Below are positions 35,765 through 54,872 of a stretch of 64,000 nucleotides of DNA, piece by piece. The stretch is from Enterobacter sp. CC120223-11 (GTDB lineage: Bacteria; Pseudomonadota; Gammaproteobacteria; Enterobacterales; Enterobacteriaceae): the NCBI RefSeq assembly GCF_900215375.1, contig NZ_OBEF01000006.1, positions 1-64,000 of the forward strand, given 5' to 3'. The notes under the pieces are model-generated. The model was not told the origin of the DNA, did no database searches, and saw nothing but the letters and a program-made list of their open reading frames with translations. The first letter of the stretch is position 1. Each line of letters opens with the position of its first letter. Both the position numbers and the translations under genes were made by a program.

Positions 35765-36098
35765 AGTGAAACACCTCAATATTCATCAGCCGTTAGTAGG
35801 CTAAGTCGTTATTACCGGACTGATGCAGAGGATCTTTTGGCATTGATATTCTTCGTTCCTTATCCGTGGAACACCGAACAAGCTACCGTGACTGTCAATG
35901 CCAAAGGAAGGCCGCATCGTGAAACTGAGAAAATGATATTCACTAAGAAAATTCTGCACAATCCATAGGAAACGTCCCACGGAGGCGAAAACAACATAAC
36001 CAATTGATTACGAACAAATTGCTCAACTATTAAACGTTCTTAATTCAGCGTTGTTAACCACATTAAACATTGTTAAAGGATGCGTTGTTAGTATTGTG
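35765..36098 (-). promoter_or_regulatory. flhDC upstream region with a spaced inverted repeat
   Basis: This 334-bp gap between fliA and flhD must hold the flhDC promoter. It is AT-rich with repeated GTTAA motifs on its fliA side (36000-36098). A perfect 11-bp inverted repeat, TTTGGCATTGA at 35836-35846 and TCAATGCCAAA at 35895-35905, lies 72-141 bases upstream of the flhD start, separated by 48 bases. It could be a regulator-binding pair or a large leader stem. E. coli flhDC also has a long, heavily regulated leader. Confidence 0.55.
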
Positions 36099-36827: not shown

Positions 36828-36985
36828 GTTCTCTTTCCACCTGGTATTCTCAGGGAGAATTATCCGGTGAAAACCGCCATTCAAAAAGTGCAATAAGCTT
36901 TTATAAAATTGCCCAATCTGCCTGTTCGTAAATGCGTCGTGGACGGCTGATAAATAACGTCAAACGTTGCCGCTAATTCCGTTAA

Positions 36986-39605: not shown

Positions 39606-41243
39606 TTATCTCAGCGACAGCAGCGCGTCAAACATCGCATTGGCCGTCTGCACTATCTGCGTGTTCGCCATATAATATTGCTGGAACATCGTCAGCTTGA
39701 TGGACTCTTCGTTCATATCCACACCCGCAATCTGCTGCTTGGTGTCGTACTTGGTGTTGAGGTCGATTTCCGCAGAACCGATTCCGGTTTTGACCTCGCT
39801 GGCCCTGGAACCGATGTTGCCCACCAGCGTGGAATAAGCATCGCTAAGGGTGCTTTTGCCGATAAGCTTTTCATCCTGAATATCCAGTAACTTCTTAATG
39901 TTGAGACTATTGGATACGCCACCAGCCGGGTCATCAGACGCCGCAAGCTCCGTCGAATCTGTAATATTCTTCTCAAGACCTTCCGCCATACCGGCCACCG
40001 GATTGAGGGTAAAGCTGTCGCCAGCAATGGCTCCTGTCGGAATATCCAGTTCGAGGCCATCAAACTTAAGCTTTGTCGGATCGGTGGTATCCACGGTAAC
40101 GGTACGACCGCCCTCACCGGTGACCTTCCAGGCCCCACCCTCGAACGTGATGGTGTAGTTCTCTGCTGTGACCTTACTGAAATCAGAGACGCTCACATTA
40201 TCCAACGCCCCCGTACCGGTGTTGCCGCTATTGGCAATCCCCTTGATAGCCGGCAGTTTGAACAGGTCCTTCCCAGGATCCCCGTTCTGATCGAAGCCTT
40301 CCTTATGCTGCTCATTCATCCGGCTCGCCATCTGGAAAGCAATCTGATTCAGATCGTTACGCGCCATCACCAGGTCTTCGTTACGGAACTTAAACAGCCC
40401 GCCCAGACGCCCTTTGGTGATGCTCTCTTCGTTCAGCGGGGAAGCTTTACCGTCGCTGCCTACATAGGAAACGATCGTTTTCTTTGGATCGGCGGCGGAA
40501 GGCGAGGTTTTCAGCTTGTAAGCGGTATTGCCGGATACCAGAGGACGCCCATCGGCAAGGGTAATGTCCACCCGCCCGGTGACCTGATTCTCCTGCACGT
40601 CAATGCCGATGTGCTGACTCAGCTCTTCCATCAGCTGGTCGCGCTTGTCGAGCAGATCCGCCGGCGCGGTGCCCGTCTGGCCCTGAAGGCGCTCCAGCTG
40701 AGTATTGATTTCAGCCAGCTGCTTAGTCGCGTTGTTGATGGCGTTGGTGCTTTGCTCAATCTGGGTGTTAGTGCTGGCTTCCAGGCCGCTCAGGCGTTTG
40801 CCGCTGTCCTTGAAGCGCTGGGTCAACGATCCCAGTGCACTTAAAACGGCCGAGCGGTTAGAGCCCTCATCCGGGTTTTCATGCAGGTTTGAGAACGCCT
40901 TAAACAGATTGCCGAGCGAGACCGAAACGTTGTCCGCCTCATCGCCGAGCATGTTGTCGATATCGGCCAGCTGCTCATAACGTCCGGTAAAACCGTTGTA
41001 CTGGGAGATAGAGCCGCGCAGTTGGTTGTTGGCAAACGCATCATAGGCACGCTCCACGCCAACCATATTGGCGCCATAGCCAAAAAAGCCGCGAGCGGTA
41101 GAAAGGCCACCAGACTCGCCGATGATCACATCACGGCGACTGTAGCCTGCTGACATACCGTTAACCAGGTTGTTGCCAACAACGCTTAGCGCATACCCCG
41201 CCGTCGAGAGACCGGTTTTGGCCATGTTGTATAAGTTATTCAT
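39606..41243 (-). CDS. flgK: Hook-associated protein FlgK
   Basis: A 545-residue FlgK (HAP1). The start at ATG 41243 gives the family N-terminus MNNLYNMAKTGLSTAGYALS; a 20-codon upstream extension runs through a leader hairpin and is unlikely. The rod-type motif (VVGNNLVNGMSAGYSRR) and C-terminal helix (TMFQQYYMANTQIVQTANAM, shown approximately) are conserved. It makes the first junction zone after the hook. Its own sigma-28-type promoter lies about 75-100 bases upstream. Confidence 0.95.
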   Translation of the reverse strand: MNNLYNMAKTGLSTAGYALSVVGNNLVNGMSAGYSRRDVIIGESGGLSTARGFFGYGANMVGVERAYDAFANNQLRGSISQYNGFTGRYEQLADIDNMLGDEADNVSVSLGNLFKAFSNLHENPDEGSNRSAVLSALGSLTQRFKDSGKRLSGLEASTNTQIEQSTNAINNATKQLAEINTQLERLQGQTGTAPADLLDKRDQLMEELSQHIGIDVQENQVTGRVDITLADGRPLVSGNTAYKLKTSPSAADPKKTIVSYVGSDGKASPLNEESITKGRLGGLFKFRNEDLVMARNDLNQIAFQMASRMNEQHKEGFDQNGDPGKDLFKLPAIKGIANSGNTGTGALDNVSVSDFSKVTAENYTITFEGGAWKVTGEGGRTVTVDTTDPTKLKFDGLELDIPTGAIAGDSFTLNPVAGMAEGLEKNITDSTELAASDDPAGGVSNSLNIKKLLDIQDEKLIGKSTLSDAYSTLVGNIGSRASEVKTGIGSAEIDLNTKYDTKQQIAGVDMNEESIKLTMFQQYYMANTQIVQTANAMFDALLSLR

Positions 41244-41270: not shown

Positions 41271-41291
41271 GACCGGGCGCTGCGCCCGGTC
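41271..41291 (-). terminator. GC-rich hairpin in the flgJ-flgK gap
   Basis: GACCGGGCGC and GCGCCCGGTC form a perfect 10-bp palindrome around one base, between the flgK promoter and the flgK start. Only TT follows in the direction of transcription, so it is at best a partial terminator for flgJ read-through, or a leader structure in flgK mRNA. Confidence 0.5.
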
Positions 41292-41316: not shown

Positions 41317-41343
41317 TCATCGGTGATTCAAAAATTTTCTAAA
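41317..41343 (-). promoter_or_regulatory. Variant sigma-28 promoter of flgK
   Basis: Minus strand TTTA, 15 bases, then ACCGATGA, located 74 bases upstream of the flgK ATG. The spacing is that of FliA promoters, but the -10 ends GATGA rather than GATAA and lacks the first G. The same form precedes flgM, fliD and fliC. Confidence 0.8.
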
Positions 41344-41352
41344 ACGACTTTG

Positions 41353-42285
41353 CTAAAAAAGTTTGGAGAGGTCGTGCTTATAGGCGTCTGCGCCCTGACG
41401 GATATCGCCTTTGACCTTCTGAATGATGGTGATGAGCTTGCGGGCATAGGCCGGATCGGTGGCATAACCGCCTGCCTGAAGCGCTTTAGCCCCCTGTTCC
41501 GCGGAGTCAGCGCTCGCCACCTGTCTGTAGCGTGGGTTGCGGGTCAGCAGCCTGGCGTAGTCGGTCAGGGCATGCTCCAGCGAGTCATACACGCGGAATG
41601 CCGCTTTCACTTTGCGCTTCACGCCGTTGAAATATTCGGTGGTGGTGATTTCGGTGGTTTTCCCCTGCCAGTCGCCGGTGGCCTTAATGCCAAACAGGTT
41701 ATGGCTCGGTTTTCCTTCGTCGGTAAGGATTTCCCGCTTGCCCCAGCCGGATTCCAGCGCGGCCTGCGCCATGATCAGGTGCGGATGCAGGCCGCTCTGA
41801 CGGGCAGCCTGCTGTGCGGGTTGAAGTAAGCGAGCGATAAACGGATGCGCCCCTTCCGAAGGCTTCGCGAAATCAACCGGGGCAGGCAGGCGCAGCGGCC
41901 CGGTCGCCGGGCGTTCGTTGCCGGCAAAATGGCCCACCGCAGGAGCCAGATCGCGCCCTGGCATGGCGACTTCTTGTTTTTCGCTGTCACCGCCCAGCTG
42001 GCGGACGATAAGATCGGCAAAGCCGAGCTGACCACTCCCGGCAATATTTTGTGCCACCTGCTGATCGTGCATCGCGGTGAACATCTCTGAAGACTGGCTG
42101 CTCAGCAGATCGTTTTTGAACGAGGCATCGCGCATGCTCTTCATCATCATCTGCACGAAGATCCCTTCCATCTGCTGCGCCGCCGCCCGCAGTGCGCCGG
42201 GTGTCTGCCGCCCCGCTTCGCGCTTCAGGCTATCGAGCGCCCGGGCGTCAAACGCCGGGCGGTCAAATTTATCCAGTTCGTTCAT
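41353..42285 (-). CDS. flgJ: Rod-cap protein and peptidoglycan hydrolase FlgJ
   Basis: A 310-residue FlgJ. The N-terminal rod-cap domain (MEGIFVQMMMKSMRDASF, near 37-54) and the C-terminal glucosaminidase domain (from about 150; AQAALESGWGKREIL with the catalytic Glu, and YDSLEHALTDYARLL) are both present, so it can clear peptidoglycan and cap the growing rod. The start at 42285 overlaps the flgI stop (TGATGA) and has a GGAGGTGG site; the ten-codon extension reads through that site. Confidence 0.94.
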   Translation of the reverse strand: MNELDKFDRPAFDARALDSLKREAGRQTPGALRAAAQQMEGIFVQMMMKSMRDASFKNDLLSSQSSEMFTAMHDQQVAQNIAGSGQLGFADLIVRQLGGDSEKQEVAMPGRDLAPAVGHFAGNERPATGPLRLPAPVDFAKPSEGAHPFIARLLQPAQQAARQSGLHPHLIMAQAALESGWGKREILTDEGKPSHNLFGIKATGDWQGKTTEITTTEYFNGVKRKVKAAFRVYDSLEHALTDYARLLTRNPRYRQVASADSAEQGAKALQAGGYATDPAYARKLITIIQKVKGDIRQGADAYKHDLSKLF

Positions 42286-43406
42286 CAATCCACCTCCAGC
42301 TTCGCCCGCAGACAACCTGCGTTCTTCATCGCCTGGAGAATCGACATCAGCTCGTTGGGGGTTGCACCAAGGTTATTGAGCGCACGCACCACGTTGTTGA
42401 GATCGGTACTGCTGCGCACGTTTTGCAGCGAACCGCCGCGATCGCGTACCGAAATATCGGTTTGCGGCACCACCACGGTTTCCCCTCCGCCGAATGGCGT
42501 ATCGGGCTGGCTGACCATCGCATTCTGAGAGACTTCCACCGTCAGGGAACCGTGTGCCACCGCGCAGGCATCCAGCGAAACGTGGCGGTTCATCACCACC
42601 GAGCCGGTACGCGAGTTCACAATCACTTTGGCGTCCTGCACGTTCACACGCAGCGGAATGTCCTGAATATTGGCGAGAAAGCGCACGCGGGAGGGGCCAT
42701 CGGCCGGGGCGAACAGGCGTACAGTGCGCGCATCCTCCGGGATCGCCGCGCCGCCGCTGTAGCGGCTGTTGATTGCATCGCTGATTTGCTGGGCCAGCGA
42801 GAAGTCCGACTCGTTCAGCTGCAGGCGCACTACGCTCTGATTCGCGAAATCGTTCGGCACTTCCCGCTCGACGGTTGCCCCGTCGCTAATTCGCCCACCG
42901 TTGAGCTGATTCACCTGCACGCGGCTGCCGCCCGCCTGCGCGCCTGCGCCTGAAATCAGCACGTTGCCCTGCGCCATGGCGTAGATCTGGTTGTCCGCCG
43001 CTTTCAACGGCGTCATCAGCAGCGTGCCGCCGCGCAGGCTTTTGGCGTTACCCAGGGAAGAGACGACGATATCAATCTTGTCGCCTGAGCGAGCGAACGG
43101 CGGCAGCTCCGCGGTCACCATCACTGCGGCGATATTTTTGAGCTGCATATTGGTGCCGGGCGGGACGGTGATCCCCAGCTGCGACAGCATGTTGCTCAGG
43201 CTCTGGCCGGTAAACGGCGCCTGCATTGTCTGGTCACCGGTTCCGTCCAGCCCCACCACCAGACCGTAGCCCATCAGCGAGTTGGCCCGCACGCCCTGCA
43301 CTGAAGTCAGGTCACGGATCCGTTCCGCGTTAGCCAGTTTCGGCACGCTCAGCATCATGCCGTAAAGCAAAATGCTGAGGAAAAACAGGATAGAGTGTTT
43401 TTTCAT
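42285..43406 (-). CDS. flgI: Flagellar P-ring protein FlgI
   Basis: A 373-residue FlgI with a signal peptide ([17 protein letters not shown], cleavage near ANA-ER at residue 28). Conserved stretches include [24 protein letters not shown] and [19 protein letters not shown]. It assembles the P-ring bushing in the peptidoglycan layer, exported by Sec and helped by FlgA. It lies eight bases after flgH. Confidence 0.95.
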
Positions 43407-43414
43407 CTTGGGTA

Positions 43415-44128
43415 TCAGAAAGGAGAAAGGTTGAGGAACAGACGCTGGAGCCAGCCCATGTTCTGCGCTTCGTTGATGTAGCCATTGCCCACGTACTCAA
43501 TACGCGCATCGGCCACCTGGGTAGAAGGCACGGTGTTCGCCCCGCTGATGGTTCGCGGGTTTACCACGCCGGAAAAGCGAATAAATTCGGTGCCCTGGTT
43601 GATGGCAATCTGCTTCTCTCCCACCACGCTCAGGTTACCGTTGGGCAGCAGCTGGTTGACGGTGACGGTAATGGTGCCAGTGAAGGTGTTGCGCGCCGCC
43701 GCGCCGCCCTTCCCGGCGAAATCGTTTTTGCCTTCGGCGTCAAAATCGGCTTTGCCGTCGCCGAGCCAGCTATTCAGTTTGGTCGGTACGGCAATGAGCC
43801 CCATTCCCGCCGAACCGTTGCGGTTCGCGCTGGCGGAAGAGCTTTTGCTGGCGCTGACGTTTTCCTGCAGCAGGATGGTGAGCGTATCGCCGACGTTACG
43901 CGGCCGACGGTCTTCAAACATCGGCTGGTAGCCGTAGTTCATGCCCTGCCCGGCCATAAACAGCGAGCCGCCGGTGGCAACAGGATTGACCGGCAGAGGT
44001 GCCGCCGTTGTGGGTCCCTCCACCAGCGGCTTTTGCAGGATGTGCGCGCAGCCGCCGAGCAGCCACACGCTCGCTAACAGCACGATTCGCGGCATGACTG
44101 CCGACGTAGAGGTCATTAATGTTTTCAT
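43415..44128 (-). CDS. flgH: Flagellar L-ring lipoprotein FlgH
   Basis: A 237-residue FlgH started at ATG 44128. The lipobox LLGGC (Cys near residue 26) marks lipidation and outer membrane anchoring. Downstream [20 protein letters not shown] and [18 protein letters not shown] are hallmark FlgH segments, and the C-terminus [14 protein letters not shown] is nearly the E. coli one. Other in-frame ATGs exist at 44116 and a few codons on; a long upstream extension into the flgG gap is unlikely. Confidence 0.93.
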
Positions 44129-44186
44129 TTCAGTGTCGATAAGCTGGCTGGCCCGGCGGAGAGACACCGACAGGCCAGAGAGGAAA

Positions 44187-44969
44187 TTACAGCTGGGAAA
44201 GGCGCTGCAGCATCTGGTCAGAAGCAGAAACGGCTTTACTGTTGATCTCATAGGCGCGCTGCACCTGAATCATACTCACCAGCTCTTCCGCCACGTTGAC
44301 GTTGGAGGTTTCTACACGTCCGCTGACCAGCGTTCCGGCATCTTCCATGCCCGGATTGAGCTCGTTTGGTGCACCTGAGGACTGTGTCTCGCGATACAGG
44401 TTGCCACCAATGCTCTCAAGCCCCGACTCATTCACGAAGGTGGCGAGTGTCAGCTGTCCAATTTGCTGAGGCTGTGCCTGGTTCGGCAGCGTAGCGCTAA
44501 CGATACCGTCGGCACTGATCTCCACTTTTTTCGCATCCTGCGGAACGGTAATCCCAGGCTGAACCGGATGCCCCTCAGCATTCACCAACTGACCATTCTC
44601 ATTTTTGGTAAAATGGCCGTCGCGCGTATAAGCTGTGCCACCGTCAGGAAGCTGGATCTGGAAGAAGCCCTTGCCCTGAATCATCACGTCGGTGTCGCTA
44701 CCGGTTTCGTTAACGCCGCCCTGGGTGTGCACCCGCTGGGTAGAGACCGAGCGTACGCCGGTGCCAAGCTGCAAGCCGCTCGGCAACGTTGTCTGTTCGG
44801 AAGCCTGAGCCCCCGGCTGGCGCATGGTCTGATAGAGCAGATCCTGGAACACCGCACGCTGGCGTTTGAAGCCGTTGGTATTGACGTTCGCCAGGTTGTT
44901 GGAGATGACGTCCATATTGAGCTGCTGTGCTTCCAGCCCGGTTTTTGCAATCCATAAAGAACGGATCAT
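44187..44969 (-). CDS. flgG: Distal rod protein FlgG
   Basis: A 260-residue FlgG, identical in length to E. coli. It has the N-terminal rod motif ([20 protein letters not shown]), the FlgG-specific insert after QTMRQPG, and the C-terminal motif [20 protein letters not shown]. It builds the distal rod beneath the hook. Cotranscribed with flgF, 22 bases apart. Confidence 0.96.
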
Positions 44970-44991
44970 AGGTAAAACTCCTTGCTGAGCA

Positions 44992-45729
44992 TTAGCTCAC
45001 GCTTAATAGCTGATTCGCCTTTTGGGCGTTCTCGTCGGCGGTGCGAATCACCTTCATGTTCATGTCGAATCCGCGCGAGGTGGCAATCATCTCGGTCATC
45101 GCCTTCACCGGGCTGACGTTGCTGCCTTCAAGCGCTTCAGGGCTCAGGCGTAACGACTCATCCTGAGCCAACGGACCGCCCACACCGGGACGGAAAAAGC
45201 CGTCATCACCGTGCAACAGGCTCGTCATCTCTGCATTGACAAGCTTAAGACGCCCAACCGGTACGACGGCCGTCGGGTCATCGCCCGCGCCTAATGCAGA
45301 AATAGTGCCGTCGGAGGCAATGGTGATTTCCGACTGCGGTGGCACCGTCAGCGGGGCACCGTCGCCCATCAGCGGGCGGCCGTTGACGCTGAGCGCCCCT
45401 TCGCTGTCGACCTGAATCATGCCGTTGCGGGTATAGCCCTCGCTGCCGTCGGCCATCTGCGCCGCCAGCCAGCCGTTCTGCGGCAGCGCCACGTCAAGAC
45501 TGCGTCCGGTATGCGTTACCGGGCCCATGCTGGCGTCGTGAAACGGAGAGGATTCAGCCACCAGTGCACGGGTGCGCAGGGTTTCCCCTTCAATGGGCAC
45601 CGCACGGTGGGCTGCCAGCTGCGCGCGAAAGCCCGCCGTCGAAGTGTTCGCAAGATTATTTGAGGTGACCGCCTGTCGGTTGAGTGCCGCGTTGGCGGCA
45701 CTCATGGCGGTATAAATGGCACGATCCAT
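44992..45729 (-). CDS. flgF: Proximal rod protein FlgF
   Basis: A 245-residue rod protein beginning [19 protein letters not shown], followed by the [16 protein letters not shown] rod signature; the C-terminus has [19 protein letters not shown]. It is one of the proximal rod subunits together with FlgB and FlgC. It lies 12 bases after flgE. Confidence 0.95.
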
Positions 45730-45741
45730 CGTCAGCTATCC

Positions 45742-46965
45742 TTAACGCAGGTTAACCAGCGTCTGGAGGAGCTCAGACTGGGTTTTGATGGTTTGGGAGT
45801 TGGACTGGTAGTTGCGCTGATAAACAATCATGTTGACCATCTCCTGCCCCAACTCAACGTTGGAGGACTCCAGCATGCCGCCCTTAATCGAGCCAAAGCT
45901 GCCGGAACCGGAGGTGCCAAGGAACGGCTGGCCCGACTGCGCCGTCTCTTCCCAGACGTTGCCGCCCTTCGAGGCGAGCCCGCCTTCGTTGGCGAAGTCC
46001 GCCATCACCACCTGTGCCAGAACCTGAGTCTGGCCGTTGCTGTACTTAACGGTAATTTCACCGCCGTCGCTGACGGAATACCCCTGGAAAGTGCCCGGCG
46101 CATAGCCATCGCTGGATTCCAGCTGAACCTTGAAGTCCGTTGAGTGTTTGGTCATACCGGACATATCGAGGTCGAACTTGAGTGGCTCTGCCCCGTTAAA
46201 GGAAACCCCTTCAATCACCAGGTTGGTGGTGCCGGTCATATTGCCGCTGGAGTCGAAAGTCAGACCAAGCTCAGAAAATACAGGCTCAGGCGGTGTACCA
46301 CCCAGCTTCGGCGCCGTGGAGTCATTGGCATATGCCTTCCAGTCACCGTTCGCATCCTTCGCATAGTAGATTTTCACGGAATGCTTATTACCGAGGCTGT
46401 CGTAGGCTTCGACCTGGCTCTGATAGTTAAAGGACTTTTCGTTTTCCGGATTAAACGGCGTTTCGGCTACTTTATCGTCGTCCGCTTTCAGGTTGCCGAT
46501 AAGCGAACCTTTGCTCGACGCCTGCGGCGTCATGCCATTCTGCGGAATACGAATCGGGCCGACGCCCGCACCAGGCTCAATCGTCGGTGGAGTCCCCGTC
46601 GCCTGATAACCCGTCAGGAAAAGTCCATTGGTTTTGTTGACGATGAAACCTTCTTCATCTGTGTCGAACTGGCCGTTACGACCGTAGAACACGCCACCGT
46701 CGCTGTTCACCATGCGGAAAAAGCCACGACCGTTGTTAATGCCCATATCGAGAATGCCGCCCGTCGTGTCCAGGCTACCCTGACCAAAATTCTGGCTGAC
46801 GCCGGCCACCTGTACACCCAGTCCGTCGACCCCGGCGAAGACGTCCGCAAACGCAATCGATCCGGCTTTAAAGCCATAGGTCTGGGAGTTGGCGATGTTG
46901 TTGCCGACCACATCCAGCGCTTTGGCGGCAGCATTGAGGCCACTAAGGCCTTGAGAGAAACCCAT
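45742..46965 (-). CDS. flgE: Flagellar hook protein FlgE
   Basis: A 407-residue hook subunit (E. coli 402). N-terminal MGFSQGLSGLNAAAKALDVV with GNNIANSQTYGFKAGS, a long central hook domain, and C-terminal ESSNVELGQEMVNMIVYQRN are conserved. It polymerises into the flexible universal joint, capped during assembly by FlgD. Confidence 0.96.
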   Translation of the reverse strand: MGFSQGLSGLNAAAKALDVVGNNIANSQTYGFKAGSIAFADVFAGVDGLGVQVAGVSQNFGQGSLDTTGGILDMGINNGRGFFRMVNSDGGVFYGRNGQFDTDEEGFIVNKTNGLFLTGYQATGTPPTIEPGAGVGPIRIPQNGMTPQASSKGSLIGNLKADDDKVAETPFNPENEKSFNYQSQVEAYDSLGNKHSVKIYYAKDANGDWKAYANDSTAPKLGGTPPEPVFSELGLTFDSSGNMTGTTNLVIEGVSFNGAEPLKFDLDMSGMTKHSTDFKVQLESSDGYAPGTFQGYSVSDGGEITVKYSNGQTQVLAQVVMADFANEGGLASKGGNVWEETAQSGQPFLGTSGSGSFGSIKGGMLESSNVELGQEMVNMIVYQRNYQSNSQTIKTQSELLQTLVNLR

Positions 46966-46992
46966 ATTGATATTCCAGTAAGAGGTAATGAA

Positions 46993-47703
46993 TTATTTTT
47001 GGATGACGACGACGTCGCCCATTTCAATCGGATCGTGATCCTTCAGATGCAGCATCGCGCCGCCGGGCATCATCGTGACGCCCTGGACCTGCTCCTGGAT
47101 GAGGCCCGTCGCCGTCGGACTTTCACCTTCGGCATTTTTGGCTTCGAAGGTCAGGGTGTATTCCCTGTCTTTCGGCGGACCAGGTTCAGGTTTGAAGTTC
47201 TCGAGGTCGTCCAGGCTGTACTCCTGCACGCCAGATTTGACGTTTTTCAGCTCCGCGGTGTAAGCGTTGCCTTCGCTATCGGTCAGGGTGACGGTAACGG
47301 TGTCCGCATCACCATTGAGCGCGAAGCTGAACTTGTCTGACTCCGTCGGCTCCACGCCTTCCTGCGTAATGCCAATGCCGCCGCTGCCGAAGGAAGCCTT
47401 CGGGTCCCCGGCAATCAGCACGCCACGCCCGACCCAGGAGGCCGCACTCATGCTGCCAAGCTGCCCCACCAGGCCATACATCGCCCCCATAGAGGTGTTC
47501 AGCTTTTCCACCCCTGACGCCATATTGAACTGCGCCAGCTGGGAGGTGAGCTGGTTGTTATCCATCGGGTTGGTGGGATCCTGGTTTTGCATCTGCGCCA
47601 CCAGCAGGGTCATAAAACTCTTCGAGAGGTCGGCGGCGCTGTTGCCCGTGCCGTTTTGTTCGGATCCGGATCCGCTGGTGTTATTAATGGATGAAACTGC
47701 CAT
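46993..47703 (-). CDS. flgD: Hook-capping protein FlgD
   Basis: A 236-residue FlgD. The conserved N-terminal segment SFMTLLVAQMQNQDPTNPMD, followed by LTSQLAQFNMASGVEKLN, is the export and cap signature, preceded by a Ser/Gly/Asn-rich start; the C-terminal part has the FlgD Tudor/FnIII-like region. It caps the growing hook and is replaced by FlgK when the hook is complete. Confidence 0.95.
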   Translation of the reverse strand: MAVSSINNTSGSGSEQNGTGNSAADLSKSFMTLLVAQMQNQDPTNPMDNNQLTSQLAQFNMASGVEKLNTSMGAMYGLVGQLGSMSAASWVGRGVLIAGDPKASFGSGGIGITQEGVEPTESDKFSFALNGDADTVTVTLTDSEGNAYTAELKNVKSGVQEYSLDDLENFKPEPGPPKDREYTLTFEAKNAEGESPTATGLIQEQVQGVTMMPGGAMLHLKDHDPIEMGDVVVIQK

Positions 47704-47712
47704 CAGGCTTCC

Positions 47713-48117
47713 TTACTGGCCGAGGGTTAAGGTTTTCAGCATCAGGGTCTTGGCGGAGTTCATCACTTCCACATTGGCCTGATAGCTGCGTGAGGCAGAA
47801 ATGGTGTTCACCATCTCGTTCACCACGTTGACGTTAGGCATGCGCACATAGCCCTGCTCGTCCGCCAGCGGGTTGCCGGGCTCATAGACCATGCGGTCCG
47901 GCGCGGAGCTCTCCACCACATCGCTGACGCTTACACCGCCAATATCGTTTCCGGCGGACGCATCCATCTCAAACACCACCTGACGTGCGCGGTACGGCTG
48001 ACCGTCCGGCCCCGCCACGCTGTCGGCGTTGGCCATATTGCTGGCGCTGACGTTCAGACGGCGCGACTGTGCCGCCATCGCTGAACCTGAAATATCAAAT
48101 ACACTGAATAGCGACAT
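47713..48117 (-). CDS. flgC: Proximal rod protein FlgC
   Basis: A 134-residue FlgC (same length as E. coli). It has [21 protein letters not shown] near the N-terminus (two adjoining segments) and [21 protein letters not shown] near the C-terminus. It is six bases after flgB and forms the proximal rod with FlgB and FlgF. Confidence 0.95.
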
Positions 48118-48123
48118 CGATAA

Positions 48124-48537
48124 TTACCCCTGGCTTAACACCGTCATCATTTTCTTAATATCCGCACCGAGGAAGGTCAGCCCGGACTGATACTTCATCG
48201 AGTTATCGGCGAAATTCACCCTCTCGCGGTCCATGTCTACGGTATTACCGTCGGCGCTCGGCTGATCGGGTACCCGATAAAGTAATTGACCGTCATCAAG
48301 CGGCCTTGCTTTACCCTCAATATGTTTATTTGAGGTTAATGATAGAGAAACGGATTGTTTCGCCATTGATGAATTATCCGTAGCGTTTTTTAACTGCTGA
48401 GAGAAATCAATATCACGCGCCAGATAGCCTGGCGTATCCGCATTGGCAATATTTGACGCCAGCACGTCCTGACGTCGCGTGAGCAGGCTCAGCGCCTGCT
48501 GCTGAAAGCTAAACGCATCATCAAGTTTATTAATCAT
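48124..48537 (-). CDS. flgB: Proximal rod protein FlgB
   Basis: A 137-residue FlgB (E. coli 138). The N-terminal ALSLLTRRQDVLASNIANAD, then TPGYLARDIDF, is the rod signature; the C-terminal half has DGNTVDMDRERVNFADNSMK. It is the first gene of the flgB-J run and is divergent from flgA, sharing a 256-bp control region. Confidence 0.94.
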   Translation of the reverse strand: MINKLDDAFSFQQQALSLLTRRQDVLASNIANADTPGYLARDIDFSQQLKNATDNSSMAKQSVSLSLTSNKHIEGKARPLDDGQLLYRVPDQPSADGNTVDMDRERVNFADNSMKYQSGLTFLGADIKKMMTVLSQG

Positions 48538-48793
48538 AAAAATGGGCTCCTGCCACGCTTATTTAAACTGCGATAGTGTAGTCAGCGCTGGTGAAATATC
48601 ACACTGCAAAGACCTGACAAAAATAAGCCTATTTAGGAGGATCAGAAAATATATAAAACAGAATGGAGGTTAATAACTTTAATTAATGACAAAAGTGTCG
48701 GCATTTTGCGGAATAAAACTCAGGGCGCTGCGTATATAATTTAATCACACCAAACGAAGAACGACTTTACGCTTTAATTAACCAGGCAACAAG
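48538..48793. promoter_or_regulatory. Divergent flgB/flgA control region
   Basis: This AT-rich 256-bp gap serves divergent flgB and flgA, which in E. coli are both class 2 genes activated by FlhD4C2. No sigma-28-type box is present on either strand, consistent with class 2 control. I could not place an FlhDC box with confidence because the consensus is loose and this FlhDC pair is diverged. Confidence 0.5.
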
Positions 48794-49495
48794 ATGATCA
48801 CTTTTTTTTTCAGAACAACGGCAATTCTGCTTACCTGTTCTGCCCCGCTGTTTGCCAGCGTGCCTGCTGCCCCGTCGGCAGAGCAGCGGCTGCAGGTAAA
48901 ACTGGATGCGCTGTTTGACCAGCCCACTTTCCGGGGTAGCGATGTGGTCCGCACCCCCGAACTGCTGGCCACGCCGAAACAGGTTTCAGCCGTGTGCGAC
49001 AACCCGACGCTCACCGTCGCGGGCAACGACAGCAGGCTGACGGGTAAGCGCACGGTCATCGCCCGCTGCGGTAACCGCAAACATTTTCTACCGGTGCTGA
49101 TTCACGCCACGGGCACCTGGTGGGTCGCCAGCCAGAGCCTGCCGGGCGGCGCTATTGTGCAGCGCAGCGATATCGAACCGCAAAGCGGTAGCCTGGATAA
49201 CCTGCCTGCCGGGGTGATCTTTAACCCTGATGAGATTATCGGCCAGCGCCTGACGCGTGCCATCAGCGCGGGTAAGCCGCTGCTGCAAAACCAGCTGCGC
49301 CAGCAGTGGCGGCTACACGCCGGACAACAGGTGGATTTGATTACGGTGGGCAATGGCTTCCGTATTCGCGGCCAGGGCAAAGCGCTGAATAACGCCGCGG
49401 TGAACGACATGCTGAAAGTTCAGACCGCCAACGGGCAAACCCTCAGCGGAAAAGTCGCCCATGACGGCCAGGTGGAGATTTTTTTCCAACAATAA
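48794..49495 (+). CDS. flgA: P-ring assembly chaperone FlgA
   Basis: A 233-residue periplasmic protein with a signal peptide (ITFFFRTTAILLTCSAPLFA, cleavage near residue 21) and an SAF domain in its C-terminal half (ARAVxA-type region GTWWVASQSLPGGAIVQRSD, then ISAGKPLLQNQLRQQW). It helps FlgI assemble the P-ring. It starts the flgAMN group, although flgM has a promoter of its own. Confidence 0.93.
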   Translation: MITFFFRTTAILLTCSAPLFASVPAAPSAEQRLQVKLDALFDQPTFRGSDVVRTPELLATPKQVSAVCDNPTLTVAGNDSRLTGKRTVIARCGNRKHFLPVLIHATGTWWVASQSLPGGAIVQRSDIEPQSGSLDNLPAGVIFNPDEIIGQRLTRAISAGKPLLQNQLRQQWRLHAGQQVDLITVGNGFRIRGQGKALNNAAVNDMLKVQTANGQTLSGKVAHDGQVEIFFQQ

Positions 49496-49496
49496 T

Positions 49497-49523
49497 TTTA
49501 GTTATTTCGCAAAGCTCCGATGA
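49497..49523 (+). promoter_or_regulatory. Variant sigma-28 promoter of flgM
   Basis: TTTA, 15 bases, then TCCGATGA, starting right after the flgA stop and 47 bases before flgM. It has the same -35 (TTTAGT) and -10 (CCGATGA) as the fliC promoter. In E. coli flgM is also read from a sigma-28 promoter as well as from flgA, giving anti-sigma feedback. Confidence 0.82.
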
Positions 49524-49569
49524 GAACAGTATACGCAGTTGCGTGACCTGATAACTGGCGAGGATACAG

Positions 49570-49863
49570 ATGAGTATTGACAGCACCAAACCGACCACAC
49601 CGGTAACCGCCCTGGCCTCTAACCAGGAGATGCGTACCCGCACGGCCCCGCAGGAGAACACCAACCCTGCCGTGAACGAGCCACAGAATAAAACTGAGGT
49701 GACCCTGAGTGCCCTCACAAAACGCATTCAGAGCGATGACAGCCGCGATGTGGACTTCGCCCGCGTGGCTGAGATCCGCGCCGCGCTCGAAGCCGGCGAG
49801 CTGCCCCTCGATCCGGAAAAAATCGCCGGTGCGCTGGTGCAGGATATGTTTCAGTTCCACTAA
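49570..49863 (+). CDS. flgM: Anti-sigma-28 factor FlgM
   Basis: A 97-residue FlgM (same length as E. coli). The N-terminus begins MSIDSTKPTTPV; the C-terminal sigma-binding half (TLSALTKRIQSDDSRDVDFA, then VAEIRAALEAGELPLDPEKIAGAL) is well conserved. It holds FliA inactive until the hook is finished and FlgM is exported. Having flgM and fliA in the same locus suggests a matched pair, separate from that of the main flagellar system. Confidence 0.94.
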   Translation: MSIDSTKPTTPVTALASNQEMRTRTAPQENTNPAVNEPQNKTEVTLSALTKRIQSDDSRDVDFARVAEIRAALEAGELPLDPEKIAGALVQDMFQFH

Positions 49864-49883
49864 CTGCAGGACATTTTCCCCTT

Positions 49884-50327
49884 ATGGATAAGCTGTACCC
49901 GATACTGGCGCAAATGAAAACGTCGCTGGACGAACTGGAGGCCATCATGATTGAGGAAGTCAATCAGCTGAGCCGCCCGCAGATCAATCCGGTGTCGCTC
50001 CAGGTGCTGACGGACAACAAAAGCCAGCTGCTGTCGACCATCCAGTATTACGACGAGATGCGCCGCCAGGAAGAGCAGGCTGAAAAGGCCGCCGCGCCCT
50101 ACACACAGCAGAGCAAGCTTTTTGCCTGCTGGCAGCAGGTGAGCGAAAAGGTGCGCAGCACCCGGGAGCTCAATCTGAAGGTGGAGACGCTGCTCAATCA
50201 GCATATGCAGCGCAACCAGCAGATCCAGAAGGTCGTCAACCAGGTCGGCCATCATGGTGCCCTGTACGGGCCAGCAGGGGAATCGAGTACCGCGCCGTCC
50301 GGGCGCAAGTACAACATCAGTATCTAA
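49884..50327 (+). CDS. flgN: FlgK/FlgL export chaperone FlgN
   Basis: A 147-residue helical protein of the FlgN family (E. coli 138), beginning MDKLYPILAQMKTSLDELEAI with a C-terminal coiled coil (LNLKVETLLNQHMQRNQQIQ) and the terminal GRKYNISI typical of FlgN. It binds FlgK and FlgL before secretion. It lies 20 bases after flgM and ends before an intrinsic terminator. Confidence 0.92.
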   Translation: MDKLYPILAQMKTSLDELEAIMIEEVNQLSRPQINPVSLQVLTDNKSQLLSTIQYYDEMRRQEEQAEKAAAPYTQQSKLFACWQQVSEKVRSTRELNLKVETLLNQHMQRNQQIQKVVNQVGHHGALYGPAGESSTAPSGRKYNISI

Positions 50328-50354
50328 ATAGAGTCAGTTGCCTCATGTTCTTTT

Positions 50355-50381
50355 GCCCACCTTTACGGTGGGCTTTTTTTT
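50355..50381 (+). terminator. Intrinsic terminator after flgN
   Basis: GCCCACC-TTTAC-GGTGGGC stem followed by eight T residues, 28 bases after the flgN stop. Confidence 0.92.
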
Positions 50382-50442
50382 TGCCTTCGGCCGGATGGAT
50401 TCTGAAGAGAGTGAAAACAGAAGTGAGGGGATTTTTAACTGG

Positions 50443-50845
50443 GCTGGGGTGAAGGGGAACTGGCGAAACCGAAAATCACAGAGCGGACACCTTCCAGCCT
50501 TTTCCCGGAAGGTCAGGTGAAAAGCGTGGTTTTTTAGCCCCCTCTCCCTGAGGGAGAGGGTTGGGGTGAGGGGGAACTGGCGAAACCGAAAATCACAGAG
50601 CGAACACCTTCCAGCCTTTACCCGGAAGGTCAGGTGCAGAAGCGTGGTTTTATAGCCCCCTCTCCCTTGAGGGAGAGGGTTGGGGTGAGGGGGAACTGGC
50701 GAAACCGAAAATCACAGAGTGAACATCTTCCAGCCTTTTCCCGGAAGGTCAGGTGCAAAAGCGTTTTTTTTTTAGCCCCCTCTCCCTGAGGGAGAGGGTT
50801 GGGGTGAGGGGGAACTGGCGAAACCGAAAATCACATAGAGAAAAC
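50443..50845. repeat. 117-119-bp tandem repeat array between flgN and fliT
   Basis: The anchor GAACTGGCGAAACCGAAAATCACA recurs at 50457, 50574, 50693 and 50812, giving three full units and a truncated fourth that stops three bases before the fliT stop codon. Each full unit contains two potential hairpins: ACCTTCC / GGAAGGT, and CCCTCTCCC / GGGAGAGGG followed by TTGGGGTGAGGG. Copies differ by a few substitutions and by length changes in T-runs. The second hairpin belongs to the family also seen at 18.6 and 19.9 kb. No coding sequence is evident. The array fills most of the 520-bp gap between two convergent flagellar units. Confidence 0.9.
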
Positions 50846-50847
50846 CG

Positions 50848-51168
50848 TCACACCGTCCGGTAAGCCTGCGCGGAGACGTTGGACTTACGCATACCGGCCA
50901 TCTCTTTGCTCAGCTCGGCCTGGCGCGCGCGGATGCGCTGCATGATAATCCCATCGTTCAGCATCAACGTTTCGATCTTCTTCGCCACCTGCAGGCGAAT
51001 ACTTCCCTCAAGCCCGGAAATATTCATGTCGATAAGACTTTGCATGGCTAACAGATAGTTCTCTATTCCGTCGTTGAAATTTTCCCACGCTTCCTCATCC
51101 GCCAGCTTCAGCAGATTGTTGCTACTTAATAACAGGCTATCCATGACAGCGATAAGCTGATTATCCAT
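50848..51168 (-). CDS. fliT: FliD chaperone and FlhDC regulator FliT
   Basis: A 106-residue helical protein at the position of FliT, following fliS with an eight-base overlap. It is shorter than E. coli FliT (121 residues) and weakly similar in sequence, so the call leans on gene order (fliD-fliS-fliT) and helical pattern (EEAWENFNDGIENYLLAMQS, then IIMQRIRARQAELSKEMAGM). FliT binds FliD and, when freed, inhibits FlhDC. A FliT matched to this locus's FlhDC is plausible. Its stop lies against the 118-bp repeat array. Confidence 0.78.
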   Translation of the reverse strand: MDNQLIAVMDSLLLSSNNLLKLADEEAWENFNDGIENYLLAMQSLIDMNISGLEGSIRLQVAKKIETLMLNDGIIMQRIRARQAELSKEMAGMRKSNVSAQAYRTV

Positions 51169-51568
51169 GACTCACCTGCTTATTTTGTGGATCGATGGCT
51201 TTCCATGTCTCGCTGAGATCGACCATCAGCGAGATCAAATGCGGCAGATCGGCGCCAGACTTATTAAGATTCGCTTCCAGCAGCTTGCGCGACACGTATT
51301 CGTACAAACGTTCCAGATCTTCGGTAATCTTGCCGCCAATTTCATGATTAAGCCCGGTACGCAGGCCATTGTCGATAATGTTAATCGCGCGCGAGATCAT
51401 CTCGCCACGGCGCGCAATATTACCCTGCTGGAAATAGATTTCCGCCCGGCGCATGGCGTTAATCGCGCCGTCAAACAGCATCACAATCAGCTGATGCGGC
51501 GTGGCCCCGGCAACCTGACTCTCAAGGCTACCGGCGGTGTAGGCATTACTGCCCGTTCTGGTGTACAT
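51161..51568 (-). CDS. fliS: Flagellin chaperone FliS
   Basis: A 135-residue FliS (E. coli 136). The four-helix chaperone is recognisable from ATPHQLIVMLFDGAINAMRR, ISRAINIIDNGLRTGLN and LYEYVSRKLLEANLNKS. It binds the C-terminus of FliC to prevent premature polymerisation and delivers it to the export gate. It is 40 bases after fliD in the same unit. Confidence 0.95.
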   Translation of the reverse strand: MYTRTGSNAYTAGSLESQVAGATPHQLIVMLFDGAINAMRRAEIYFQQGNIARRGEMISRAINIIDNGLRTGLNHEIGGKITEDLERLYEYVSRKLLEANLNKSGADLPHLISLMVDLSETWKAIDPQNKQVSHG

Positions 51569-51608
51569 CTTTTCTGTCCTGCCGGGCAGCGCGGCTGCCC
51601 GGAATGTG

Positions 51609-53078
51609 TTAGACCAATCCGGCCAGCGCCGACTGCAGCTGCTGGCTCATGCTGTTCATCTGATTCATCGCTGCATCAAGACGCTGATACTCTTTTTCCC
51701 TGACCTTCAATGTCTCTTCAATCCGCCGCTCAACAGCCGATATCTGTTTAGCGTTACGAGAGTCTTTCTCGCGCAGAGAGGCAAGCGCAGTTTCAATTGC
51801 CCCCTCTTTCTTCGGTAAAGCATCTTTATCACCAAGGTAGGTATCGAAGAGCCCTTCCATCCGGCCTTTCAGCCCTTCCTGACCATCCCTGCCAAGGAAC
51901 AGCGCCTCCACTTCCTTTGGATTGCTTTTCAACGCTTCATCGAGCTTTTTATTATCGATAGAGAGCGTACCTAGCGCGCCAGTTCTTTGCTCTCCCTCTT
52001 TCACCTCTTCAAACTTAACGGTAATTCCAAGCTTCCCAAGGGTCTGGAATACATCGTTAGTCGATGTGTAGTCGCCGGTCACAGTCGATTTCAGCTGACT
52101 GGTAAGACGGCGCAGCGTACCGTCGCTTAATAGCGCGCCATTGTCCGCAGCTGCCGTTGGAACTTCTCCCTCACCCAGCGAGTTGCGATCCGGTGCCGTA
52201 TATTTTGTCGCTTTCGTCGCCGTGCTGAGGTAGCTGTTGTAGTTTTTGACAAACTCTTCAATCAGCGACTTCACTTTAGATGTGTCCGCCGTCACGGCCA
52301 GGGTTTCGGGTTTAAATTTGGCCGGATCGTCCGGATCCTTTTCGGATATCTCACGCAGCTCAAGCGTCACACCGGTGATCAGATCGCTAATGGTGTTCGA
52401 ACTGCGCTCAACGCGATCGCCATTCAAATGGACGATGGCATTCTGGGGAGCGGTTTTATCATGCAAACCCAGCGCGCTGTCGAGAGTGGGATCGGTCGTT
52501 GTCACCGCCATCTCCCCCGCTTCGCCGGTTTTTTTTGACGTCAGCATCAGCTTGAACTTGTCTTCGCCGAGCGACACAACCTCAGCAATCACGTCGCCGT
52601 TCTGGGCGTTAATTTTTTTAGCAATCTGATCGAGGGACGTTTCGTCTTTTTTCAACTCAACCGTCAGCGGTTTGCCGCTGTCACCGACATCAATAGTCAG
52701 GGTTCGGCTGTCGGCAGAGCTGCCTAACAGATTCGTCCGGGAATCCTGCTCCTTAGACTGTATCTGATGCGCCGATGCCAATTTTTCAACGGCTATCTGA
52801 TAACTGTTTGGGATTGCCCCTGAACCCGCCGTGGCTTGAAACGCTTTATTGGTGCCGACGCTAACGCCGTTAAAACCTTCATCCTGCAATTTTTCCAGGT
52901 TAGTTTTCAGCGAACTTAATGAACTGGAAAGCGATCCCCACGCCGATATTTGCCCTTTATAACTGTTTTGCTTCTGTAAATAAGGGTTTAAACGCTGCGT
53001 CAGGCCCTGACGCTCTTTGGCCAGCAGTTCTTCAAGAGGCAGTCCCGAGCCAATATTCATAAATCCTGATATTGCCAT
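51609..53078 (-). CDS. fliD: Filament cap protein FliD
   Basis: A 489-residue FliD (HAP2) started at ATG 53078 with an ACGGAG site; a longer frame reaching 53192 would run through its sigma-28-type promoter. N-terminal SGLPLEELLAKERQGLTQRL and the C-terminal coiled coil (AISAVERRIEETLK-like, then YQRLDAAMNQMNSMSQQLQS) are typical. It is the pentameric cap that folds flagellin at the tip. Cotranscribed with fliS and fliT; divergent from fliC. Confidence 0.95.
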   Translation of the reverse strand: MAISGFMNIGSGLPLEELLAKERQGLTQRLNPYLQKQNSYKGQISAWGSLSSSLSSLKTNLEKLQDEGFNGVSVGTNKAFQATAGSGAIPNSYQIAVEKLASAHQIQSKEQDSRTNLLGSSADSRTLTIDVGDSGKPLTVELKKDETSLDQIAKKINAQNGDVIAEVVSLGEDKFKLMLTSKKTGEAGEMAVTTTDPTLDSALGLHDKTAPQNAIVHLNGDRVERSSNTISDLITGVTLELREISEKDPDDPAKFKPETLAVTADTSKVKSLIEEFVKNYNSYLSTATKATKYTAPDRNSLGEGEVPTAAADNGALLSDGTLRRLTSQLKSTVTGDYTSTNDVFQTLGKLGITVKFEEVKEGEQRTGALGTLSIDNKKLDEALKSNPKEVEALFLGRDGQEGLKGRMEGLFDTYLGDKDALPKKEGAIETALASLREKDSRNAKQISAVERRIEETLKVREKEYQRLDAAMNQMNSMSQQLQSALAGLV

Positions 53079-53116
53079 TACATACTCCGTTATTAAATTT
53101 TCCTGATTCTCTCTTT

Positions 53117-53143
53117 TCATCGGGATATTAAGGAGAAAGTTTA
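53117..53143 (-). promoter_or_regulatory. Variant sigma-28 promoter of fliD
   Basis: Minus strand TAAA, 15 bases, then CCCGATGA, 39 bases upstream of the fliD ATG. The -35 here is the canonical TAAA, but the -10 again ends GATGA. Confidence 0.82.
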
Positions 53144-53284
53144 ATTTTTTATCCGAGGGACAACAATCAAAAACACTGAATAAAGCAGGCATTAGCGTTT
53201 ATCAGGCTATTGCCAGGATCAATAAAAAGAATTACGCAAACAAATGTGCGCAATTCTGCGAGTTAAAAAAAACACAAAAAATCT

Positions 53285-53311
53285 TTTAGTCTTTTCACAT
53301 AGCACCGATGA
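53285..53311 (+). promoter_or_regulatory. Variant sigma-28 promoter of fliC
   Basis: TTTA, 15 bases, then ACCGATGA, 67 bases before the fliC ATG. Together with the fliD promoter it forms a divergent pair in the 300-bp fliD-fliC gap. The stretch from TTTAG through CCGATGA matches the flgM promoter closely. Confidence 0.83.
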
Positions 53312-53378: not shown

Positions 53379-54872
53379 ATGGCCCAGGTCATTAATACCA
53401 ACGCACTGAGTCTGATGGCTCAAAATAACCTGAACAAATCCCAGACTCAGCTGGGTACCGCTATCCAGCGCCTCTCTTCCGGCCTGCGAATTAACAGCGC
53501 CAAAGATGACGCTGCGGGTCTGGCCATCACCAACCGCTTCACCGCCTCCGTGCGCGGCATGACCCAGGCGGCGCGTAACGCTAACGACGGTATCTCTCTG
53601 GCGCAGACCAGCGAAGGCGCACTGGAAGAAGTCACCGAAAACATGCAGCGCATCCGCGAGCTGACCGTTCAGGCAAAAAACGGCACCAACTCTGAAGATG
53701 ACCGTAAGTCCATCTCGAAAGAGATCAAAACCCGTCTGGACGAAATTGAGCGCGTCGCCAAAAACACCCAATTCAACGGCGTGGAAGTCTTCAACGGCAC
53801 CAATGACAAAATCACCCTGCAGATTGGCGATAAAGAGGGAGATACCATTGAGATCAGCCTCAAAGAGCTGAGCCTGACAGAGCTGGGCCTGGACAAGTTT
53901 GACGATGAATTTGCCAAGATCACTGCGGCGATTGAAGATCCGACCGTTGAGAAAGGGACTGCCCTTGCGCTGGATGGTACTGGTACACTCGACATCGATC
54001 ACGCCAGCGCCAAGTCCTGGAAAGCGACTGATGCTGAGCTTACTAAAATTGCTAAAGCGATTGATAGCTCCCAAACTGATAAGTCGAAGCTGGAAGTCTA
54101 CACAACGGGTACCGGCGCAGACACCAAAATCTATGCGAAGCTGACTGATGGTACCGAAAAAGATAAAGTGTTTGAAATCGACCCCGGCGCTATTGATGAT
54201 ACCGCTGCCGAACTGACCTTTACCCCAGTTAAAGGCACTCAGCTTTCAGCCCTGGATGCGGATATTCTGGTTAATGGCCCGAGTACCTTCGCTCCTGCTG
54301 AAGTCAAAGCTGACGATCTTCTGAATGACAATACCGGCGCTGCTACCACTGCTAAACTTGCCGACAAACTGGATGCGATTTCCCAGGCCATCTTTACCCA
54401 GGACGCCGCAACCTCCGGAATCCAGGTCTTCACTGGTGGTGATGCCAACACCTACTATGCCGTAGACAACAATGGCACCGTGAAATCATTCCAGGTGGAT
54501 AACACAGGTGATATCACCCCAGCTTCAATTGCCGATCCTGATGCTCGCGATGGTTACGCGTTCGCAAAAGCAGCAGCTGGCGGCGGCGGTGCGATTATCG
54601 ATGGCCTGCTGGGCAAACTCGATGAGGCCATGGGCACCATCACCGACTTCCGTGCTGACTTCGGTGCAGCACAGAACCGCCTGAGTTCCATCATCGCCAA
54701 CCTGAACACCAACATCATCAACACCACCGAAGCGCGCTCCCGTATCCAGGACGCCGACTTCTCCGTGGAAGTGTCTGCCATGAGCCGTGCTAACATTCTG
54801 CAGCAGGCAGGTGTGTCCGTACTGGGTCAGGCCAACCAGGTTCCACAGAACGTGCTGTCCCTGCTGCGTTAA
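53379..54872 (+). CDS. fliC: Flagellin FliC
   Basis: A 497-residue flagellin. The conserved D0/D1 N-terminus ([37 protein letters not shown]) and C-terminus ([31 protein letters not shown]) flank a variable middle (about residues 180-400) rich in Asp, Thr and Ala. The D1 segment [16 protein letters not shown] matches the TLR5-recognised and protofilament-contact region. AAAGGACATTGAC precedes the ATG. It is the single flagellin gene in the locus and is expressed from the variant sigma-28 box; a FliS gene lies nearby. Confidence 0.96.

Follow-up and report, generated by a model that had tools for sequence, protein, structure and literature searches.

Four promoters in a 64,000-nucleotide stretch of DNA from Enterobacter sp. 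CC120223-11 (assembly GCF_900215375.1, positions 1 to 64,000 of contig NZ_OBEF01000006.1, here contig C17; hereafter the window) carry a variant form of the sigma28 promoter. They precede flgK-3, flgM-3, fliD-3 and fliC-3, late genes of a flagellar locus that the genome has in addition to its primary system (flag-1). The variant departs from the form found before the orthologous flag-1 genes, is conserved in related loci in a pattern that follows their clades, and occurs once more before a chemoreceptor gene elsewhere in the genome, all of which can be read in the DNA itself. The sigma factor of the locus, FliA-3, and its promoters have probably co-diverged into a partly private sigma28 dialect, with FliA-3 as the presumed reader of the variant.

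Promoter forms in the window and in related loci

An earlier note on this DNA had described four 27-mers composed of a -35 tetramer TTTA or TAAA, 15 bases and an eight-base box with G as the seventh base and without the first G. All four are found letter for letter at the positions of Table 1, and the proteins encoded downstream match FlgK, FlgM, FliD and flagellin in Pfam, as had been claimed. That no further intergenic copy with this spacing exists in the window was also borne out, the pattern TWWA-N15-NCCGATGA having exactly 4 matches in the 64 kb versus 0.04 expected from dinucleotide shuffles, with none of 100 shuffles reaching 4. The sites keep the canonical sigma28 spacing and the CCGAT core, and of the remaining canonical letters we find TAAA at one site out of four, and G at position 1 and A at position 7 of the box at none. 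The pooling of TTTA and TAAA, although right in its letters, hid a difference: the -35 element is TTTAG at flgK-3, flgM-3 and fliC-3 versus TAAAC at fliD-3, where it is joined to CCCGATGA in a hybrid of both dialects. Likewise, the base directly 5′ of the box is C at three of the four sites and T at fliD-3, and the longer pattern TTTAG-N13-C-H-CCGATG has 3 window matches versus 0.01 expected. The boxes lie 73, 46, 35 and 67 bases before the start codons of flgK, flgM, fliD and fliC, respectively. A scan of the whole genome (4.69 Mb, 39 contigs) for TWWA-N15-NCCGATGA, counted as exact-pattern matches, returned 20, namely the four window sites and 16 others, of which one overlaps the start of a gene and the remaining 15 fall within reading frames.

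The orthologous promoters of flag-1, a system spread over contigs C21, C23 and C25, offer a direct contrast. For flgK, the pair is TCAA-N15-GCCGATAA in flag-1 versus TTTA-N15-ACCGATGA in the window; for flgM, TAAA-N15-GCCGATAA versus TTTA-N15-TCCGATGA; for fliD, TAAA-N15-GCCGATAG versus TAAA-N15-CCCGATGA; and for fliC, TAAA-N15-GTCGATAA versus TTTA-N15-ACCGATGA. Together with those of motA (TAAA, box GCCGATAT) and fliA (TGCA, box GCCGATAA), all these flag-1 boxes follow G[CT]CGATA and none contains NCCGATGA; G and A likewise occupy positions 1 and 7 in the boxes before a pdeH-like gene (named by eye) and before two chemoreceptor genes (C23; C17:191 kb). Scored by weight matrices from which the window's genome had been left out, the flgK, flgM and fliC sites of the window reached 21-23 bits as flag-3a versus -1 to 1 as flag-1, while nine flag-1-type sites of the genome scored higher as flag-1 by 6 to 19 bits; in addition, flag-1 flgK reached 17.6 as flag-1 versus 5.9 as flag-3a. 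The part of the earlier claim that set this locus apart from the primary system of its own genome was thus upheld. The part that confined the dialect to this locus was not, the form being common to flag-3a-type loci of Enterobacter, Citrobacter, Pantoea, Erwinia and Buttiauxella.

Homologous loci came from two sources: a protein-based search, which gave 10 loci, and a search with FliA-3 in 392 genomes of the family, a sample used because no FliA-3 match above 53% had been found in an order-wide sample of 394 genomes besides the own genome. In the family sample 23 genomes matched at E 1e-78, the own included, and stretches were taken for 20 of the 22 others (one of only 2.6 kb; G406 and G509 left out). 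The flag-1 comparison set was drawn from 20 regions of an order-level search. The score by which sites were picked took no account of positions 1, 7 and 8 of the box, yet favoured T[AT][AT]A; the flgM site of L051 (TTTA-N15-TCCGAAGT) was read by eye, the scan having chosen another place. Promoters were dropped for flgK of L060 (gene front missing) and of L057 (no site), for fliD of L148 and fliC of L147 (start or gene unresolved), and for fliC of L117, L122 and L124 (false matches to flgL), as was L113, whose FliA and sites are identical to those of L059. L137 (fliC, fliD) and fliD of L147 had no usable leader, L112 and L125 contributed a sigma factor without promoter rows, and L129, L130 and L131, of a flag-1-like sister group, were counted apart (8 promoters).

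Among the 39 flag-3a promoters of 10 loci, position 1 is A in 21, C in 13, T in 5 and never G, and position 7 is G in 30, A in 6, T in 2 and C in 1, so that G at position 7, taken as a hallmark by the earlier note, is prevalent and not universal. Their -35 tetramers are TTTA (22), TTCA (6), TTAA (6) and TAAA (5, all of them fliD), CCGA is found in 39 of 39 followed by T in 37, and the spacing is 15 in 31 and 16 in 8. The 37 flag-1 promoters of 19 loci have G (35) or T (2) at position 1, A at position 7 and a -35 of TAAA in every case, and the 29 flag-3b promoters of 15 loci have G (13), A (12), C (3) or T (1) at position 1, A (26) or T (3) at position 7, and TTTA (24) or TTCA (5) as -35. The gene mix differs between these sets, since the flag-1 set holds only fliC and fliD and the flag-3b set only flgK and flgM. 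A C precedes the box in 33/39 flag-3a, 10/37 flag-1 and 12/29 flag-3b promoters. TTTAG being common to flag-3b, it is G at position 7 plus the strict lack of G at position 1 that mark flag-3a, and flag-3b, as the sister clade, shows an intermediate promoter state. Where the spacing is 15 (31 flag-3a sites), the mid-spacer (columns 13-15) holds 0-0.06 bits per base compared with up to 2 in the boxes; the spacer bases next to the -35 hold mostly 0.2-0.9 bits and the C before the box 1.2. A flgK leader could be used in 9 flag-3a-type loci, that of the window among them, and in 8 of these the flgK promoter is TTTA-N15-ACCGATGA; the exceptions recorded are the flgK box of the ninth, L053 (ACCGAATA), and the flgM box of L051 (TCCGAAGT).

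FliA-3 and the promoters of chemoreceptor genes

In a FliA tree of 56 rows, a flag-3 half (28 rows) is split from a flag-1 half (28 rows) with support 100/99. Within the first, the flag-3a sequences form a clade of 11 rows, 10 of them distinct (100/99), which includes Enterobacter, Erwinia, Pantoea, Citrobacter and Buttiauxella records; within the second, 22 rows make up flag-1 proper (100/100), whose sister is a 6-row group with a flag-1-like gene order. The residues of the -35 helix run parallel to the promoters: T217 is found in 9/10 and T219 in 10/10 flag-3a sequences, each of them in 16/17 of flag-3b, and both are absent from 21 flag-1 and 5 sister-group sequences, a distribution that tracks TTTA versus TAAA. 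Q26, K33 and Q198 are present in 10/10 flag-3a and in 0/43 of the other sequences compared, and to our knowledge none of them is a base contact. L212 was discarded as a flag-3a-only residue, being found also in one flag-3b sequence. The match of residues and promoters is a correlation, drawn on a tree with few independent events. When A(-11) is taken as the fifth base of the box, as passages of PMC12781870 imply, position 7 corresponds to about -9 and position 1 to about -15.

A likely order of events can be proposed. The branch leading to flag-3 would first have changed the -35 from TAAA to TTTA, together with the region-4.2 helix changes G217T and S219T and a looser G at position 1; then, in flag-3a only, position 7 would have turned mostly from A to G (about -9), the G at position 1 would have been fully lost and the C before the box gained.

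Outside the locus, the chemoreceptor gene at C30:246643 carries TTTA-N15-TCCGATGT ending 36 bases before its GTG, a site that scores 19.9 bits as flag-3a and -4.4 as flag-1 with the same matrices. About 0.001 such matches would be expected in the 150-base leaders of 14 receptor genes at control density, a figure computed after the match had been seen. This candidate target is a further respect in which the dialect exceeds the locus to which the earlier note had assigned it. The gene has no match above 52% in six same-genus genomes (at most 13 candidates scored per genome), in five of which the FliA-3 search was also without a match. Its four nearest relatives (58-66%), in G423, G410, G425 and G441, the first and last of which have a FliA-3-like match, show TAAA, TAAA, TAAG and TAAG with GTCGATAA, GACGATAT, ACCGATAT and ACCGATAA, respectively, and thus lack the dialect. 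Among the matches listed, the best -35 at 29 receptor loci of other genomes was TAAA in 25, TAAG in 2, TGAA in 1 and TTAC in 1, and neither TTTA nor CCGATG was found at the best site of any of the 29. The C30 gene is located between glmS and pstS (L283:6600-8200; names by eye), and the region downstream of glmS is a known insertion place of Tn7-type elements.

Other matches outside flagellar loci were of less clear standing. In the own genome, two were not counted as targets: TCCGATAA, which precedes an OpgC-like gene, and a match that lies across the start of a second acyltransferase-like gene (both genes named by eye). Among nine relatives, seven matches fall outside the loci, six of them overlapping reading frames or their starts; the seventh is a perfect TTTAG-N13-C-ACCGATGA about 200 bases before a ulaG-like gene of Enterobacter quasihormaechei (L232:1501-1530), which may have arisen by chance and was not counted as a target either.

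The flagellar locus and its predicted cascade

Three FliA-type sigma factors exceed the family cut-off in a TIGR02479 profile search of the genome, at C25:45830 (286 bits), at window positions 36120-36782 (236 bits) and at C17:84612 (207 bits), just past the window, and the genome also has three FliD and three FlgM matches. The window locus carries its own flhDC, fliA and flgM (Pfam), its order flgNM..L-fliA-flhDC-motAB-cheAW next to fliCDST (open reading frames ordered by eye, key genes by Pfam) is that of flag-3a, and a CadC-type regulator is found beside fliC, as in flag-3a loci; the locus therefore fits a flag-3a-type flagellar system (Table 1). To the right of the window lies a lateral-type flag-2 system (open reading frames read by eye), so that flag-3a-type and flag-2 supernumerary loci stand side by side on C17 from about 30.5 kb in the window to at least C17:103 kb.

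Table 1. Promoter sites and key genes of the flag-3a-type locus in the window
Feature	Position	Strand	Details
flgK-3 promoter	41317-41343	-	-35 TTTA 41340-41343; -10 ACCGATGA 41317-41324; C directly 5′ of box
flgM-3 promoter	49497-49523	+	-35 TTTA 49497-49500; -10 TCCGATGA 49516-49523
fliD-3 promoter	53117-53143	-	-35 TAAA 53140-53143; -10 CCCGATGA 53117-53124; hybrid of both dialects
fliC-3 promoter	53285-53311	+	-35 TTTA 53285-53288; -10 ACCGATGA 53304-53311
flhC-3	34831-35430	-	PF05280, 250 bits; master regulator subunit gene of flag-3a-type locus
flhD-3	35405-35779	-	PF05247, 120 bits; master regulator subunit gene of flag-3a-type locus
fliA-3, FliA/WhiG-type sigma factor	36099-36893	-	TIGR02479, 236.1 bits, cut-off 189.6; 52% identical to FliA-1 of same genome
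flgK-3	39606-41243	-	Pfam match
flgM-3, anti-sigma-28 factor	49570-49863	+	PF04316, E 2.6e-8
fliD-3	51609-53081	-	Pfam match
fliC-3, flagellin	53379-54872	+	Pfam match
CadC-like winged-helix regulator, next to fliC	57754-58605	+	PF00486

The four sites would then act as class-3 promoters in a second system of peritrichous flagella, self-contained and of the flag-3a type, in which FlhDC-3 would switch on FliA-3 and FlgM-3 would restrain it until the hook is built. FlhDC-3, FliA-3 and FlgM-3 would thereby make up a complete three-tier cascade with a diverged promoter in its last tier, where FliA-3, in place of TAAAG-N14-GCC-GAT-AA, would read TTTAG-N13-C-H-CC-GAT-G-A, a form that FliA-1 presumably reads poorly; the result would be a partly private channel from FliA-3 to the late genes and to one chemoreceptor gene outside the locus. 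On its strand, fliA-3 is preceded by flgK, flgL and a gene for a receptor, a layout that may allow feedback from the flgK promoter to fliA-3. A search of the flag-3 loci for a class-3 promoter of fliA-3 itself turned up no consistent site, the best scores being 7 to 10, nor was a sigma28 site seen before motA-3 in the two flag-3a leaders read (window and L060; scores 7.5 and 8.5). The motor and chemotaxis genes of the flag-3 system may be early genes.

Additional features of the locus can be recorded here. In 30502-35779, motA-3 lies close behind flhC-3, and the sigma28 site that flag-1 motA has was not seen before it. The stretch that separates the flgK-3 promoter from flgK contains, at 41271-41291, an inverted repeat rich in G+C, which reads GACCGGGCGC-A-GCGCCCGGTC along the coding strand; it has no T-run, and the z-score of the flgK-3 leader is -2.2. 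A 941-residue open reading frame at 59114-61939 (-), between fliC and fliR, resembles by eye an exported, repeat-rich protein of the autotransporter kind.

With regard to flag-2, the lateral flagellin leaders of 27 of 30 loci (L186-L215; simple scan without shuffled control) contain an element like TTTAATT and, 13-14 bases downstream, one like GTCGTTTTA, the leader of the own genome being at L038:9968-10120. The flag-2 pair is possibly a third dialect in the same genome. Its flagellin promoter being different, flag-2 was rejected as the source of the flag-3a dialect.

Competing readings and known systems

Several observations weigh against a private dialect of FliA-3. In the window itself, the fliD-3 site scores 13.4 bits as flag-3a versus 11.4 as flag-1, a difference of 1.9, and in leave-one-locus-out scoring 3 of 76 promoters were misfiled, all of them fliD-3; this hybrid site suggests that insulation is probably incomplete, with leakage between the systems. 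The A of flag-1 is kept at position 7 in 6 of the 39 flag-3a promoters (fliC and fliD of L058 and L059, fliC of L056, fliD of L053), and the flag-3a loci are not independent, because L052/L060 and L054/L055 are close kin in the FliA tree. Fisher p-values for the promoter counts take no account of this kinship and call for caution. Chemoreceptor genes of the own genome add departures: at C13:197295 (L219), TAAG-N15-GCCGATGA ranks best and has G as both first and seventh base (10.2 bits as flag-1 versus -0.2 as flag-3a), so that a G in the seventh place also occurs outside flag-3 even though the flag-1 structural and regulatory genes compared lack NCCGATGA; the top place at C20:16735 (L223) is TAAA-N16-ACCGATGG, 211 bases upstream (13.1 as flag-3a, 3.2 as flag-1), with an alternative TCAA-N15-GCCGATAT 32 bases upstream (4.7 and 12.0, respectively); and the receptor gene at window positions 14439-16106 has the box GCCGATCA, out of line with a neat contrast of flag-1 and flag-3. 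Nor was an enrichment of the dialect found outside flagellar loci when exact patterns were compared with a reversed control in the own genome and nine relatives: TTTAG-N14-HCCGATR has 6 matches versus 6 in the control in the own genome, three of them in the locus and one of them the C30 receptor site, and the core pattern has 22 versus 20 in the relatives, 15 of the 22 inside loci. As to the protein, R74, D81, R84 and R91 are, reportedly from work of Koo et al. in 2009, the -10 contacts of E. coli FliA, and the last three are kept in 10/10 FliA-3a sequences and R74 in 9/10 (one K). Beside these contacts, G77W and S92R occur in all flag-3a, flag-3b and sister-group sequences compared, and the sister group combines them with TAAA or AGAA and with A as the seventh base, so that the dialect is not explained by any one residue.

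One alternative, which we consider rather unlikely, is a one-way relaxation by which FliA-3 would read both dialects and FliA-1 only its own, so that flag-3 would feed flag-1 genes and not the reverse. It would account for the looser -35 and positions 1 and 7 of flag-3a and flag-3b compared with flag-1, and for TAAAC being kept at fliD-3 in 5 of 10 loci. Flag-3a promoters, however, are not merely looser, for they have gained the C before the box and the G at position 7 and never show G at position 1.

Somewhat less probable still is drift within one shared specificity, FliA-1 and FliA-3 reading both forms equally, in which case the dialect would be a family resemblance that came down with the locus, without insulation. 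The -10 contacts conserved in all clades, the many flag-3b promoters with A at position 7 or G at position 1, the fliD hybrid, the flag-3a sites retaining A at position 7 and the G at that position of the C13 receptor site would all agree with drift, but the identical change recurs in four promoters unrelated to each other and before a receptor gene elsewhere, and the box, the -35 and the C before the box are conserved while the mid-spacers diverge. The recurrence of the same changes in these non-homologous promoters is better explained by a change in the reader, FliA-3, than by separate drift. Moreover, at the E. coli aer promoter a change of the -35 from TAAA to TATA reduced the FliA-dependent activity from 223 to 26 Miller units, according to passages of PMC2859248; the loss makes a weak use of TTTAG promoters by FliA-1 plausible, though only by inference, since aer is a weak, CRP-dependent promoter. 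The interaction of sigma28 with the -35 element is called the weakest of those compared in a passage of PMC10216364. That the boxes are read by another sigma factor, or that FlhDC-3 and sigma70 alone act here and CCGATGA is incidental, is very improbable, as the sites agree point by point with sigma28 class-3 promoters in where they lie, how they are spaced and which genes follow.

If co-divergence of FliA-3 and its promoters is accepted, a wider and doubtful extension would be that one cell holds three mutually insulated sigma28-promoter pairs, TAAAG/GCCGATAA for flag-1, TTTAG/CHCCGATGA for flag-3a and TTTAATT-like/GTCGTTTTA-like for flag-2, with genes movable between systems by a few promoter changes, a possible example of which is the chemoreceptor gene in the glmS-pstS interval. 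How insulation arises between duplicated sigma factors is an open question, hard to study as most paralogues diverged long ago; here, two sigma28 factors of one genome, 52% identical and alike in gene set and spacing, come with orthologous flgK, flgM, fliD and fliC promoter pairs that are swappable base by base. Insulation, if real, would go some way to account for the separate control of two peritrichous flagella in a single cell, and it would provide small, ready-made orthogonal sigma-promoter pairs.

Among the top-ranked papers of the open-access literature, none was found that treats the promoters of flag-3 or the coexistence of different FliA promoter forms in a single enterobacterium, which is weak evidence of novelty since subscription papers were mostly outside the search. 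With respect to E. coli, whose FliA consensus is given as TAAAGTTT-n11-GCCGATAA in a passage of PMC2859248, the flag-3a promoters share the late genes served, the CCGAT core and, at most sites, the 15 bases between the -35 tetramer and the eight-base box; they differ in TTTAG instead of TAAAG, the lack of G at position 1, the frequent G at position 7 and the extra C before the box. The locus in the window also resembles the flag-3a loci of De Maayer et al. 2020 as described in parts of PMC7526173, with the blocks flhE..fliR, fliCDST and flgN..L-fliA-flhDC-motAB-cheAW, Enterobacter, Erwinia and Pantoea kin, and a CadC-like gene beside fliC, said there to be universal in flag-3a. It differs in that the FliA clade obtained here adds Citrobacter and Buttiauxella, which section 6 of that paper puts only under flag-3b; the tree there was built from 45 concatenated proteins and the tree here from FliA, and the word "promoter" does not appear in its main text. 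A separate sigma28 for each flagellum in one cell is likewise known from the polar and lateral flagella of Plesiomonas (FliA and FliAL), where, unlike here, the separation was studied by knock-out transcriptomes, the main text of PMC11242183 containing neither "motif" nor "consensus". A further parallel is offered by the flag-3b loci, which share TTTAG or TTCAG as -35 in 29/29 promoters along with T217 and T219, and differ in having A or T at position 7 and in keeping G at position 1 in 13/29.

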